Source: Buxus sempervirens (Eukaryota > Streptophyta > Magnoliopsida > Buxales > Buxaceae). From it: 64,000 nt of DNA. Positions within the stretch are counted from its first letter, which is position 1, and each line of letters begins with the position of its first letter. The stretch covers positions 27,766,766 to 27,830,765 of the forward strand of contig OX387184.1 in NCBI GenBank assembly GCA_947561395.2. Direction: 5' to 3'. Shown here one piece after another: positions 4,117 through 62,996 of the stretch. The position numbers were made by a program, and so were the translations under genes. The notes beneath the pieces are model-generated. The model saw only the letters and a program-made list of their open reading frames with translations. It searched no databases and was not told where the DNA came from.

Positions 4117-4248
4117 AACCGTATATACAATACGGTCCAACCCTGCCCGTATTCAAATTACGAGCGGGCGTGACCGTATGGAAACCACGAGCGAGCCGAG
4201 CCCGTATAACCACTATGGGCAAGCACAGCCCGTGTACTAAATACGGTT
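4117..4248. repeat. CCG-N11-CGG dyad array, 5 units, in element leader
   Basis: Five 21-nt dyads start at 4117, 4145, 4172, 4200 and 4228, with 7, 6, 7 and 7 nt linkers. Unit 1 is CCG, TATATACAATA, CGG. The others keep the N11 spacing but some have CGA or TGG at the right arm. The arm set (ACCGTA and GCCCGT) is the same as in the LTR array of this element at 7076-7179, although this array lies more than 1 kb inside the element. Confidence 0.88.
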
Positions 4249-5456
4249 TTACGGAACTCTGTTATATTTTTCCAGTTTTTACATAGTTTGATCACTTTAA
4301 TTGCTCATCCAAACGTACGGTTCACCCAGTGCAGGGCTTCTAAACTGTCCCAAAGTGGACTTTGACCTTTTTGTTAAAACACATGTTTAGGAAGGCACAT
4401 GTACCCTCCAAATTGACACCATACTCAAGAATTTGGTACCCTTTTGTTGCCTCTTGTATGAAGATTGGGTAGGATTGATTCTAAACAGAGTTAGAAACTC
4501 TTCCTATGGGCTGCACCAATTTTGGAAACATGCATATTTTGGGACCAATTTTATCCCAAACCAATGGGCACCATGACTCCCCTATGACATGAAAATAATG
4601 CAAAACAATAGGATTACCTTGTTACCTTGTTACCTTGTTTACCTTCAATATGGCATCTGCATTATGCCCTGGTTTGTAAGCCATGCACACGGCCTTCCCA
4701 CAATCATACCAACCCATATCCCCACGTAATTGTGTATTTTAGCCAAAAACGTGTAACTCCACCTTCAAGCGTAGGGGTTTTGGGTTTTGGCTTAATGGCA
4801 ACTTAGCACTCAAGCCTAGTGATGACCAGAATCCCAGATCCACGTTATCATCACATCATTGGCCCAAAGTTCTAAGGTGAATGTTTTCACTTTCGCTTTC
4901 CGAAGTATCGACCTCGTTGCGCCAAGCTACACACATTCGGGTTCAACTTCCTATAGGTTAAGGGTAGGCTGTGTAAAAATAAATAAATGTGCACAGTGCA
5001 TTGTAAAAAAATAGGGTGCATTCACAACGTCCCAAACCCTTGCCACTCTTTTCGCAGCCATGCATACACAAACCAAGGCATAATAGGAAAACATATTTAA
5101 AAGTAAACAAATACACAAAGCAGTCCCTATAGCACCTAAAACATGCTCATAAAAAACCATCTAATCATGCAAACATATGATCATGTTATACACCAAAAAA
5201 TCATCATGGAGATCATGCTGAAAATTAAAACATGCTACCATAAAAATATAGCAAGAAATAAACATGGTTCAGCAAAACGGACCTCCCCTACGCATGTTTG
5301 TAGAAACAATCCTATAAATCAAAATTAAGCATGTTTCTACCCCCATGAATTCTTAAGCAATAATTCAGATTTAAAACATACTCAACATGCTTAAGAACAC
5401 AAACTAACAAGCAAATCTAAAAAAATCAAAAACATGAACAAAAACACCAAAAGGCT

Positions 5457-5474
5457 CAAATCCTCAAGTCGCCA
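5457..5474 (-). other. Putative tRNA primer-binding site
   Basis: Two bases after the end of the 5' LTR, the minus strand reads TGGCGACTTGAGGATTTG. It begins with the TGG expected of a primer-binding site. It would pair with a tRNA 3' end finishing in TCGCCA; a T-arm-like TCAAATCC is also visible on the plus strand. The exact tRNA (Arg or Ser type) is not decided. Confidence 0.6.
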
Positions 5475-6866
5475 GTTGTGAGACATGGGAAAAAATAAAA
5501 TCCAATGACTTCCTCTATCATCACACAGGATTAAATAAAACAAAGAGTCGCCACCATTCAATTTAGGTGTGAATGGACACCAAAATATCAAATAAGCACA
5601 AAAGGCAATTTTAGGGTAAAAATAACCCTCCTAAAAAAACAAGAGATGGGTAAGGGAATTAGGTTATGAACAGGGGAAGGTGTTAGGCACCCCTATTCAT
5701 CCACACAAGGTGGTTGCCAGGTATTGTTCAAGTTTTTCAAAGAAAAAAGGCTTGCTATAAAATTCATGAAAAATCACAAAAAAAAAACAAAATATATGGT
5801 TTTTTCATATGAATAGTCTGATTGATCCCGAACTTTCAAATATGATCATACCATTCCTAGGGCTTCATGATCAAAACAAAATTTAGATAAAATCAAATAA
5901 AATCAATTTAAAGTGAAAAATCCAAAAATCTGGCTTCTAGTTAAATTCTAGAAATCTAGAAAAATATGATTTTTATAAAATATTTCAAAATTGAACTTGA
6001 ATAGTCCAGGACATAGATAAAGCCCAAATTTCACATTAAATCTGAAAATCAAAACCAAAAATACCCACGTTGATGAGAAACATCAAAAGGGGAGAACTTA
6101 GACCGTAGGGTCTTCTCTCAAAAGTGAAAAACAATTTAAAAACCACTTCATGAAACCCTAGAATTTATTTTCAGGCTTCTGTATTCAAATCTATCATATT
6201 GATCATGATAAATCCAAGATCTTAGCCTAAACTCACAAAAATCACGAAAACAGTGCTGTAGGTGCAAATATGTGGAAAATCCAAATTTTATAAAAAAGTG
6301 GGGATCTCATGCTATAAACATCATATATTCATGTTATTCATTCAGATTCATCATAAAAAGCATTAAAACATGATCATGATATTCAAAACAGCCACATCTC
6401 ACAGATTAGAGCACATGGGGGTCTACCCTACGGATCCACCTGTTCTCTTTTCCCCTAGCTCTCTCTTCACGTTTTACGGCTAGAGAGTATTCTTGAGGTA
6501 CTTGGAGATAGGTTTGGTTATACAAACACAATCAAAGGCTTTATTCTTAAAAAAAGGAGAAAAGCAGATATGGGGTTCTATTCTATGGATCCACCTGTTC
6601 TCTTTTCCCTTAGCTCTCTCTTCACGTTTTACGGCTAGAGAGACTCTTGAGGTACTTGGAGGCAAGTTTAGGAATACAAGTACAAAAGATGGCCTTATTC
6701 TACAGCAATAGAAATGATCCTATTACTTCTAGAATTGAAAACAGAAAATAAAAGGGAAAAGGGACTTACCTGGATTGAGCAAGCAGAGCAGCAGGGGTTC
6801 CTCTTCTTCTCTTGGAGCTTCTTAGACTTCAAAATTTCGTGGCCCCTAGCTTGAGAATCTCACCTC

Positions 6867-6874
6867 TATTTATA
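6867..6874 (-). promoter_or_regulatory. TATA box of LTR B1
   Basis: TATAAATA on the minus strand, in the context GCCTATAAATAGAGG that recurs in other A and B LTRs. It lies about 200 bp downstream of the dyad array. Confidence 0.75.
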
Positions 6875-61095: not shown

Positions 61096-61102
61096 ATCCT
61101 TT

Positions 61103-62193
61103 CACTACAAAAAAAAGTCTTTTTATTACGGCACTTCAAAAGTGCCCATTATAATATAAAAAAATGCCGTTATAACAAATAACGGCATTTTGATAAAGTG
61201 CCGTTTCAAGTGGTGTTGCATTATGTTATAGCGACAACTTATAACAACACTTTGAAATATGCTGCTATAAAGTGACTTTTTACGGCATTTAAAAATGCCG
61301 TAAAAAATATAAGCTATTACGGCATTTTTTAAAGTTTCGTAATAAAGTTTATCAACACTTGAAGGCTTTAGCGGCAACCACCACATGCCGCTAAAAGTAT
61401 ATTAATTTTAAAAAAATTTAATTTACCCCACCCCACCCCCCCCCCCCCCCCCGACAAATTTAATTTCCCATGCTAACAACCAGATTTACTTAGTAATATC
61501 AATTCCCAACAACCGCAAAGTACTTTATGCTTCAACTATTTGCCATTCACCATCAAAATTGAAAATATCTGAAATTTTCAAAACTTAAGTAGAAAACTTG
61601 CTTAAATACTCAAGAAGTAACTGATCTAAAAGTTTAACAATATGTATGATTCCTTTTGGAGACAAGTACAAAAAATTACAACCTGCAGAGAACGGCCCAC
61701 AACCTTGCTAAATGGAAATGGGCTCTTTGGGTCAATCACGGGCTTGACTTTTCCATTCTCCAGAAATGGGTTGAGTTTGTTCAGGACTAAACCATTGCAA
61801 GTGATAATGAATTTGAAAGCAGGTGGTGTGACATCACCCGTTAGCACCACTACGCTGCCCCCTTCCTTCATTGCCTTCACCACCCTGCCCTGTTATCCCA
61901 CAAAATTGATCTCTCTCATTAATCTGAAAATCAAATATCCAGACAATACGCAACTGGGGAAGCGAATCATTTTAAACCAGAAGGAGAGCAAATTGAAGAC
62001 TATAATTGTGATTGTGAAGTAGCAAAACCTTAAGATTATCACACGAGGACCAAGTGATTTTCAAAAGTAGCCACTTTGCTATTTGAAATCAATAAAACAT
62101 AAAGGGGATAGCAATTTGAATGTAGCACAAAGAATTAGAGCCAAATGGCTTAAAGCTAAGAGGCACTTCTACCATTTATATGTCTAGGGAATG
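61103..62193. mobile_element. CACTA-type transposon terminus with subterminal repeats
   Basis: CACTACAAAAAAAAGTC at 61103 matches the terminal repeat of plant CACTA (En/Spm) elements. It is followed within 280 bp by at least eight copies in both orientations of TTACGGCA/TGCCGTAA, the expected subterminal array. A poly-C tract lies at 61430-61452. The other terminus is not in the window, so the extent is uncertain. The reductase fragment lies 560 bp inside. Confidence 0.65.
61659..61889 (-). pseudogene. Fragment of a 2-methylene-furan-3-one/alkenal reductase-type gene
   Basis: The minus strand encodes [19 protein letters not shown] and [20 protein letters not shown], close to the C-terminal part of plant medium-chain quinone oxidoreductases (fruit enone oxidoreductase and chloroplast alkenal reductase type). 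An acceptor AACAG lies directly before the first codon (AG at 61890-61891), so this is a captured 3' exon. After FSKVV about ten residues normally present are missing, and the frame passes to GRSLQVVIF and then into unrelated sequence. The N-terminal catalytic region and most of the NADPH-binding region are absent. It is a gene relic, probably carried by the surrounding transposon. Confidence 0.85.
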
Positions 62194-62767
62194 TGTAAGC
62201 ACCTTATTTTTGCACCCCTAGAAGTGCTGAAAATGAAAACCCTAGCGGAAAAGTCAAACCCTGAGGGGACGAAAATTAACTTTTTGATAAAGTGATAATC
62301 GGCTACCTTGCTTTATCTCAATGGATAGAGAATCCCGACACGGTTCCAACGCAACTGAGTTTGCTGGAATCGGAGTCTGGATGAAGGTTCTGCAGGCCGG
62401 TCAAACTTGAGGGGGATCTGAAAGTTGACTTTCTGCTAAACCCCGATCCATGTGCTTAACCCTATGCCATGGGATAGAGGACTCTGATACGGTTCTAACG
62501 CAATTGAGTTTACCCAAATCGGAGTCCGGATGAAGAAGATATGAGCAGTTGAAGTTCCCGAGCAGCAAAGCCGGAAACTGCACACGTGGCAAAAGAACTG
62601 CACATGTGGCAGCAAACGCAGCAAAATATCTCGAGGGGTAATCTTTAAAAATCAAAAACTTGCTAAATATCTCAGGGACTAAACCAAAATTCGCAGGGGC
62701 AATCTGCAAATATCCAAAAGTGTCAAATCGGTCAAGTCGAGGGGCAAATCCGTAATTTTTTCGATTT

Positions 62768-62996
62768 GTATCCGATCAAATATGTCGGATACACATGCTT
62801 TTCTTCATATCCGACATAGATTTGCCTACGAGATTTGCGCGGATTCGCTGACAGATACGCGCAGAAAATTAAATTTTGGAAATGATTGTGTTTGTATCCG
62901 ATATAATATGTCGGATACAAAGGAAGTGCAGTGTATCCGACATAATATGCCGGATACAAAGGAAGTGTAGTGTATCCTACATTAAATGTCGGATAC
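62768..62996. promoter_or_regulatory. CCG-N11-CGG dyad array, 39-bp class (A6)
   Basis: 25-nt units lie at 62768, 62807 (right arm decayed), 62894, 62933 and 62972. Neighbouring units are exactly 39 bp apart with 14-nt linkers. Arms are GTATCCG and CGGATAC, the same as in B7. The last unit ends 11 bp before the TATA box. Confidence 0.93.

Follow-up and report, generated by a model that had tools for sequence, protein, structure and literature searches.

Arrays of CCG-N11-CGG dyads as putative promoter modules in two families of LTR retrotransposons of Buxus sempervirens

In this work, we describe arrays of short dyads, each made up of CCG, 11 nucleotides and CGG, in a stretch of 64,000 nucleotides of Buxus sempervirens DNA (contig OX387184.1, positions 27,766,766 to 27,830,765; C4:27766766-27830765, hereafter the window), which belongs to a genome of 676,531,615 bases in 247 contigs. 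The arrays lie in copies of two families of long terminal repeat (LTR) retrotransposons, here called F1 and F2. F1 LTRs start with TGTAAGCAC or TGTAGACACC and end at about GGTGCGCACA, and F2 LTRs start with TGTAGACACCCC and end with CATGTCTCACA. Three solo LTRs of each family were found in the window, flanked by target duplications that are 5 bp long in F1 and in one case imperfect in F2 (table 1), and the LTR copies of the window are separate insertions. A longer F2 copy extends past the left end of the window; its 3' LTR, found in stretch L025, is 97.4% identical to the 5' LTR, and GGGTC flanks the copy on both sides.

On the minus strand, the pol region of this F2 copy has reverse transcriptase first (L023 9091-8210), followed by RNase H, another RNase H-like domain and integrase (L023 8331-5896). 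One open reading frame (ORF) of F2 matches PF17917/PF17919, then PF13456 and then PF00665, that is, the second RNase H stands between RNase H and integrase. Judged by its domains, F2 is a Ty3/gypsy family and Tat-like, because its pol follows the gypsy order and includes two RNase H-type domains, the dual arrangement being a mark of Tat elements (PMC9289625; here and below, statements on published systems are limited to the cited passages of the sources). The 20 relatives of the F2 gag include proteins from Tetracentron, Trifolium and Lathyrus. The coding content of F1 is known only from a match to gag next to one of its LTRs in L022. Pattern searches for primer-binding sites yielded no convincing candidate.

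The preliminary description of this DNA had placed such dyads at 12 positions, in nine LTR copies and one internal leader. Dyads are in fact present at all 12, in the hosts described, with two of the LTRs having two arrays each. CCG-N11-CGG occurs 38 times in the window, compared with a mean of 1.76 and a maximum of seven in 100 dinucleotide shuffles, and the 12 arrays hold 34 of these matches. Other spacings from 0 to 40 gave zero to nine matches each, except N39, with 16. Moreover, groups of at least two dyads within 60 bp occur ten times in the window and in none of the 100 shuffles. In the whole genome, two N11 dyads 8-16 bases apart were found at 28,161 places, against 712 for the reversed pattern, each place being a pair of dyads and not an array, so that a single array may be counted several times. 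The same pattern with N10 in the place of N11 was found at 123 places, and its own reversed control at 2,578. Since the window count exceeds that of the shuffles and the genome count for N11 exceeds both N10 and the reversed control, the dyad arrays are real, strongly nonrandom and distributed genome-wide, well above chance frequency.

The arrays of the window have a period of 28 bp (class alpha, half-site CCGYA) or 39 bp (class beta, half-site TCCGRY or CCGGW). In alpha arrays, this period means that half-sites alternate in strand each 14 bp. It had been claimed that all arrays obey the frame exactly; the lattice is there, but not its strictness, since CCG and CGG are both intact in 34 of 49 slots. 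Similarly, the two periods hold in 23 of 28 alpha intervals and in eight of nine beta intervals, with the remainder deviating. CCG is found in 81 of 98 half-sites, and 15 of the other 17 are CCA, CTG, TCG or TTG. Between units of one array, outer arms are 79% (alpha) or 85% (beta) identical, whereas internal spacers reach 38% and 47% and centres 46% and 52%, with about 25% expected from composition alone. Half-sites and their spacing are therefore constrained far more than the sequence of the spacers.

Additional arrays came from 18 loci in the first 5 Mb of contig 1, taken from the genome pattern listing. These loci have 38 arrays, with intervals that include 28 (42 times), 39 (17), 27 (seven), 56 (six) and 78 bp (three). 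F1 or F2 LTR homology contains, or is at most 350 bp from, 34 of the 38; three of the remaining four lie 1.2-1.5 kb after an F2 LTR, in a leader-like position, and one lies before an F2 LTR.

Table 1. Dyad arrays, LTRs and element ORFs of the window and of the F2 copy at its left end
Feature	Position	Strand	Remarks
F2 gag ORF	1648..3063	-	PF03732, E 6.2e-10; 20 relatives
F2 leader array, alpha, between LTR and gag	4117..4248	-	arrays at similar distance after F2 LTRs in L014, L017, L019
F2 5' LTR of 21,072-bp copy C4:27752976-27774047, extending past left end of window	5477..7282	-	TGTAGACACC start, CATGTCTCACA end
F2 U3 array, alpha, four dyads, intervals 28/27/28	7076..7179	-	nearest centre 211 bp before TATA at 6875
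F2 U3 array, alpha, LTR starting at 11730	11522..11626	-	nearest centre 221 bp before TATA at 11311
Decayed dyad, further F1 LTR starting about 24569; absent from preliminary description	21134..21154	-	centre 22 bp before TATA at 21122
F1 solo LTR	21839..24246	+	target duplication ATTCC
F1 U3 dyads, alpha	22349..22525	+	last centre 25 bp before TATA 22540
F1 U5 array, alpha, decayed, 1/4 slots exact	23377..23481	+	
F2 solo LTR	36017..38346	-	LTR ends and imperfect duplication GATAC/TATAC
F2 U3 array, alpha, 1/4 slots exact	37657..37761	-	nearest centre 214 bp before TATA at 37453
F2 solo LTR, split by nested F1 solo LTR 42476-44860	41064..45754	-	target duplication GGACC
F1 solo LTR	42476..44860	+	target duplication CCAGG
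F1 U3 dyads, alpha, 4/4 exact	43046..43242	+	last centre 26 bp before TATA 43258
F1 U5 array, alpha	44032..44136	+	
F2 U3 array, alpha	45069..45173	-	nearest centre 225 bp before TATA at 42464, insert discounted
F2 solo LTR	46007..48512	+	target duplication CATCC
F2 U3 array, beta, four dyads of period 39	46109..46251	+	last centre 178 bp before TATA 46416
F1 solo LTR, TATA-like box at 53349 with no dyad array before it	52380..55559	+	target duplication CATAG
F1 U5 array, beta, period 39	54401..54505	+	
F1 U3 dyads, beta, LTR starting about 62194	62768..62999	+	last centre 23 bp before TATA-like box 63007
F2 PMD1 ORF	L023 3150-4022	antisense to gag-pol	best Pfam match DUF7745 (2.2e-21); PMD second (4.5e-12), over cut-off
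F2 PMD2 ORF	L023 259-1323	antisense to gag-pol	PF10536 over cut-off

The arrays of U3 stand upstream of TATA boxes, with the last dyad centre 22-26 bp away in four F1 LTRs and the arrays 178-225 bp away in five F2 LTRs. Besides U3, arrays are found in the U5 of F1 and in the leader of F2. A loose dyad criterion applied outside the arrays recovered three places in the window, one of them being the dyad centred 22 bp before a TATA in the minus-strand F1 LTR. For 19 of the 38 further arrays, either of two TATA words lies no more than 300 bp away, compared with a mean of 2.5 and a maximum of seven in 500 random placements, and some distances recur, with four arrays each at 24, 168 and 211 bp.

We found that arrays at different sites within an element (U3, U5, leader, PMD1 and PMD2) belong to a single class in 14 of 14 elements, with 31 sites, in a nonrandom sample that comprises the elements with at least two sites in the stretches examined, site boundaries being set by hand and leaders assigned by distance. 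Ten of these elements are alpha and four are beta, the latter being three F2 copies of one subfamily, all of CCGGW type, and one F1 copy. As beta occurs in both F2 and F1, at least one switch took place in each family, barring exchange of arrays between families. Tandem conversion inside arrays is excluded as the cause of this agreement, because the sites are kilobases apart. A trans-acting factor with an element-specific preference could explain it, and so could recombination exchanging whole noncoding parts.

The left-end F2 copy also has two ORFs antisense to gag-pol, between pol and the 3' LTR, that are above the Pfam cut-off for the plant mobile domain (PMD), PF10536 (PMD1 and PMD2 in table 1). 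Upstream of PMD1 there is an alpha array with exact dyads at L023 2984, 3012 and 3067, followed by CTATATAAA at 3107, that is, 32 bp from the last dyad centre, and by an in-frame ATG at 3207. A second alpha array (L025 4366-4436) lies between the 3' LTR and PMD2, about 1.8 kb before the latter, and no TATA was seen at this array. In a second F2 copy, with its 3' part in L018, in a stretch chosen from the layout of the first copy, we found a PMD1 homologue with 79% amino-acid identity over 236 residues. It is preceded by four beta dyads of period 39, the last centre being 24 bp away from a TATA box. The arrays in the LTR and on the PMD2 side of this copy are likewise beta. PMD2 is 51% identical between the alpha and the beta copy in an alignment of 256 residues, with another 70 residues at 39%.

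Based on these features of the DNA, the arrays are probably promoter modules of F1 and F2 elements for a dimeric factor matched element by element. Each array would be a ladder of strand-alternating half-sites around CCG for a dimeric sequence-specific DNA-binding protein, and such modules would act in front of the TATA box of the LTR, at a second place in the U5 of F1 or the leader of F2, and next to the antisense PMD ORFs of F2. The specificity of the factor appears to be matched to the element and to have been switched across the whole element in each family. While the anatomy, the spacing, the TATA position, the half-site constraint and the class agreement are features of the elements examined, we infer from them that a protein binds the arrays, that it does so as a dimer and that this factor activates. 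The interpretation put forward in the preliminary description is supported in part; the TATA position, the antisense genes with a dyad promoter and the class agreement lay beyond it.

Several observations weigh against this reading. Half of the further arrays (19 of 38) have no TATA word within 300 bp, and in the further loci a dyad is centred 20-28 bp upstream of 4 of 36 TATA words (none in the control interval of 60-68 bp). The arrays at 168 and 211 bp belong in part to one subfamily, and copies at one distance may be close kin. The F1 LTR at 52380-55559 has no U3 array, and the minus-strand F1 LTR at 24569 has no dyad in the region expected for its U5 array (15560-21100). With respect to class agreement, seven alpha sites contain one or two beta-like half-sites, while beta sites contain no alpha-like ones; several sites, with one or two exact dyads, were classed by half-site instead of period; and the U5 array of the 62194 element was taken from L024 across a presumed insert. 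Finer types also mix, as this same F1 element has CCGAY in U3 and CCGGC in U5, and with three of the four beta elements in one F2 subfamily, the agreement may rest on few class switches. Co-change of arms in the same slots, described below, is nonsignificant in four of eight comparisons. Additionally, the idea that PMD genes in general stand under dyad promoters was refuted. A PF10536 family search gave 8,446 first-look candidates and 117 scored matches, 20 of which were sampled down the list, favouring other PMD families; in the 900 bp upstream of the start of the domain match (not of the start codon) these 20 showed one lone dyad and no array. The dyad link concerns the PMD genes of F2, as observed in two copies, and does not extend to PMD genes as a class.

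The arms of the dyads had been said to change together, and this holds between arrays. When right arms were assigned to the wrong array, complementarity fell from 0.643 to 0.389, and none of 20,000 permutations reached the observed value; the alpha arrays alone gave 0.618 versus 0.495, again with none of 20,000. The 48 arrays with the window included, taken with exact dyads only, were collapsed to 33 nonredundant ones, in which the array-level match persists for alpha (0/20,000) and falls below significance for beta alone (1,058/20,000). Dyad by dyad within arrays, the claim does not hold: shuffling the right arms within the arrays of the window left complementarity as it was (284 observed versus 283.5), and in the 33 nonredundant arrays the values were 219 versus 217.7 for alpha and 77 versus 72.8 for beta (p=0.047). 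Since within-array shuffling hardly changes complementarity, the arms match mainly through a half-site specificity common to the array and not through compensating hairpins. Individual slots were compared between LTRs in a test that treats change positions as uniform, so that its significance is overstated. Between the F1 LTRs at 22349 and 43046, the mirrored position 1 has changed in four of four dyads and position 8 in three of four, giving seven both-arm changes against 2.0 expected (p=0.0005), six of which keep complementarity. For the other seven comparisons, three gave p values of 0.03-0.043 and one of 0.052, and those of F1 U5, 7076/11522 and 11522/45069 gave 0.17-0.48.

These results bear on the possibility that the dyads work as RNA hairpins, either as signals in the transcript or as templates of small RNAs for silencing, which we consider unlikely. 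In its favour, 12 of 12 stretches tested fold better than all their shuffles (z -3.4 to -11.5), and small RNAs of maize Sireviruses have been reported on palindrome clusters (PMC10760457). Nevertheless, good folding would follow from the symmetry of the DNA alone. Beyond the array-wide half-site there is no compensation, with beta borderline, and mismatches on the sense strand show no excess of G.U over A.C (8 versus 10 in U5 and leader, 10 versus 15 in U3). Moreover, the U3 arrays lie upstream of the TATA and so outside the start of the transcript, although they would recur in its 3' end, and neither exact spacing nor a fixed TATA distance would be necessary for hairpins. The selection on symmetry proposed in the preliminary description is supported at the level of half-sites by the high identity of outer arms relative to spacers and by the better fit of arms from one array, and of the two mechanisms it offered, dimeric binding fits better than hairpins.

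It is very unlikely that the arrays matter merely as CpG/CHG-dense islands for the methylation machinery of the host, with their sequence otherwise free. They are indeed rich in CpG, with observed/expected ratios of 0.78-1.67 in the window against 0.26-0.84 in the 1-kb flanks, and a median of 1.47 in the further loci against 0.63 for whole loci, but the 11-base spacing, the class-specific flanking bases and the class agreement would be left unexplained. The least probable explanation is that the symmetry is a mutational by-product of tandem duplication and template switching at quasi-palindromes, for although the arrays are tandem and their arms homogeneous, duplication would have carried along spacers that have in fact drifted with the spacing kept, and it would account neither for distant sites of the same class in all 14 elements nor for the recurrent TATA distances.

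If the arrays are promoter modules, candidates for the binder are a host factor and the F2 element's own PMD protein. LOB-domain proteins have a CGG half-site, and they stay a guess, as the review text gives their dimerisation and no motif. It is possible, though doubtful, that the antisense PMD proteins of F2 bind the dyads in the LTR, the leader and the PMD promoters of the element that encodes them and activate or un-silence their own kind only, protein and sites switching together between alpha and beta. PMD2, being more diverged than PMD1 between the alpha and the beta element, would then carry the specificity. PMD has been described as an extra domain of gypsy elements (PMC5418596, PMC9289625), with PMD-A clades encoded exclusively by gypsy (PMC5418596), and its function there is stated as unknown (PMC9289625); a self-matched PMD protein, if true, would provide one. 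Among PMD proteins of the host, MAIN and MAIL1 are reported to function in silencing, and a promoter motif is enriched among genes needing them (PMC7156037).

In L005 (7444-6843, minus strand), two F1 LTRs enclose a PMD match in sense orientation, and the interval from the upstream LTR to this match has no exact dyad. We also observed PMD matches that come in pairs of like orientation, separated by about 3.4 kb and in many cases in open frames (C14:24506346/24509794, C4:42315242/42318696 and C3:45640023/45643445, among others). These pairs look like a separate PMD-bearing element family, whose sampled upstream stretches have no dyad arrays.

The closest known kinds appear to be the palindromes of Sireviruses and the target arrays of VANC proteins. 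In the Ty1/copia gene order, integrase comes before reverse transcriptase. Sireviruses are copia elements, whereas F2 has the gypsy order, so the copia gene order is not found here. A further Sirevirus trait is that several polypurine tracts precede the 3' LTR. Their RM boxes are palindromic and CpG-rich, occur in many copies and have a CGG-CCG core in 12 of 13 elements; they lie shortly upstream of a conserved LTR TATA, with more clusters 5' of ENV, vary in sequence by element, and were called Sirevirus-specific relative to the classic copia elements compared (PMC2829016). The arrays of Buxus are alike in being clustered CGG/CCG palindromes upstream of a TATA, though not in every copy (the LTR at 52380 has no U3 array), and in having more boxes in front of an accessory gene, which is ENV there and, in two F2 copies here, the antisense PMD1. 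They differ in that the Sirevirus consensus boxes are compact, with no fixed lattice or class agreement reported in the passages cited, while here we see CCG-N11-CGG with periods of 28 and 39. What was known are palindromic CGG boxes upstream of an LTR TATA as a feature of Sireviruses versus other copia elements. The Buxus arrays are an analogous module in gypsy elements; their 11-base spacing is rigid, and the paired sites of this single genome number in the tens of thousands. Judged by position, the module belongs to two promoters, that of the LTR and that of an antisense accessory gene, and its classes are consistent throughout an element.

VANDALs are Mutator-like DNA transposons, whereas the hosts of our arrays, F1 and F2, are LTR retrotransposons. 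In Arabidopsis, the anti-silencing VANC proteins of VANDALs recognise short tandem motifs, YAGTATTAY and AGTTGTCC/AGTTGTAC, with binding established by chromatin immunoprecipitation sequencing and electrophoretic mobility shift assays (PMC5735166, PMC10398659). Both systems have tandem motif arrays in noncoding transposon DNA that differ between related families, as well as an extra protein encoded by the element, and in both the element-specific arrays are common to dispersed noncoding sites (here in the nonrandom sample of 14 elements and 31 sites described above). On the other hand, the VANC motifs are not dyads, PMD is another protein, and VANC binding was measured, whereas binding to our arrays is predicted from their sequence. 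Short DNA probes could address the role of retrotransposon PMD proteins and a VANC-like private regulation in LTR retrotransposons.

Symmetric activator boxes of LTR retrotransposons are also known from Tnt1 (box I) and from the 5' UTR of copia. These boxes (cited in PMC2829016), compared with ours by description, are likewise symmetric and belong to another element type. With Tat gypsy elements such as Retand (PMC11963269) and the Ogre-like ones (PMC9289625), F2 shares the dual RNase H, a long space between pol and the 3' LTR and antisense ORFs. Retand differs in having TRP28 ORFs and tandem repeats in that space (PMC11963269), and the Tat accounts, in the passages cited, mention no dyad promoters for the antisense ORFs. 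Two dyad patterns searched in viral_contigs gave no match, nor did an F1 LTR compared with plasmids; a gag alignment searched in viral_contigs gave 48 pattern stretches, none confirmed. No comparable dyad system was found in searches of the open-access literature, which mostly leaves out subscription papers.

Some further features of the arrays and their hosts deserve mention. A "palindrome of palindromes" does not emerge as a general rule, as the N7 centres of adjacent dyads match directly in 15 of 37 cases and inverted in 15 of 37; the dyads at 54442 and 54481 do resemble inverted copies of each other. A lone dyad, TTTCCG-N7-CGGAAA, occurs at 15975-15995 and 54586-54606, in the 3' half of F1-type sequence. 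In the F1 LTR at 52380-55559, a 32-bp tandem repeat (52941-53061) lies upstream of the TATA-like box at 53349, in the place taken by dyads in other F1 LTRs. The linker that joins the second and third F1 dyads (22405-22470 and 43100-43165) has in both LTRs ACGCG words and CTTCTAGAAG, which we take to be heat-shock-element-like, and two F1 U3 regions (52760-52800 and 62575-62600) have CACACGTGGC words, presumably G-box-like. About 540 bp of U3 are 92% identical between two F2 LTRs (37813-38347 and 45215-45755), with their arrays and the remaining LTR more diverged, which suggests mosaic LTRs formed through recombination. Finally, an ORF with a prolamin-like domain (PF05617) at 28938-29546 is probably a host gene, and ORFs of the long interspersed nuclear element type (RVT_3/zf-RVT; endonuclease) were found at 49295-50500 and 55475-56815.

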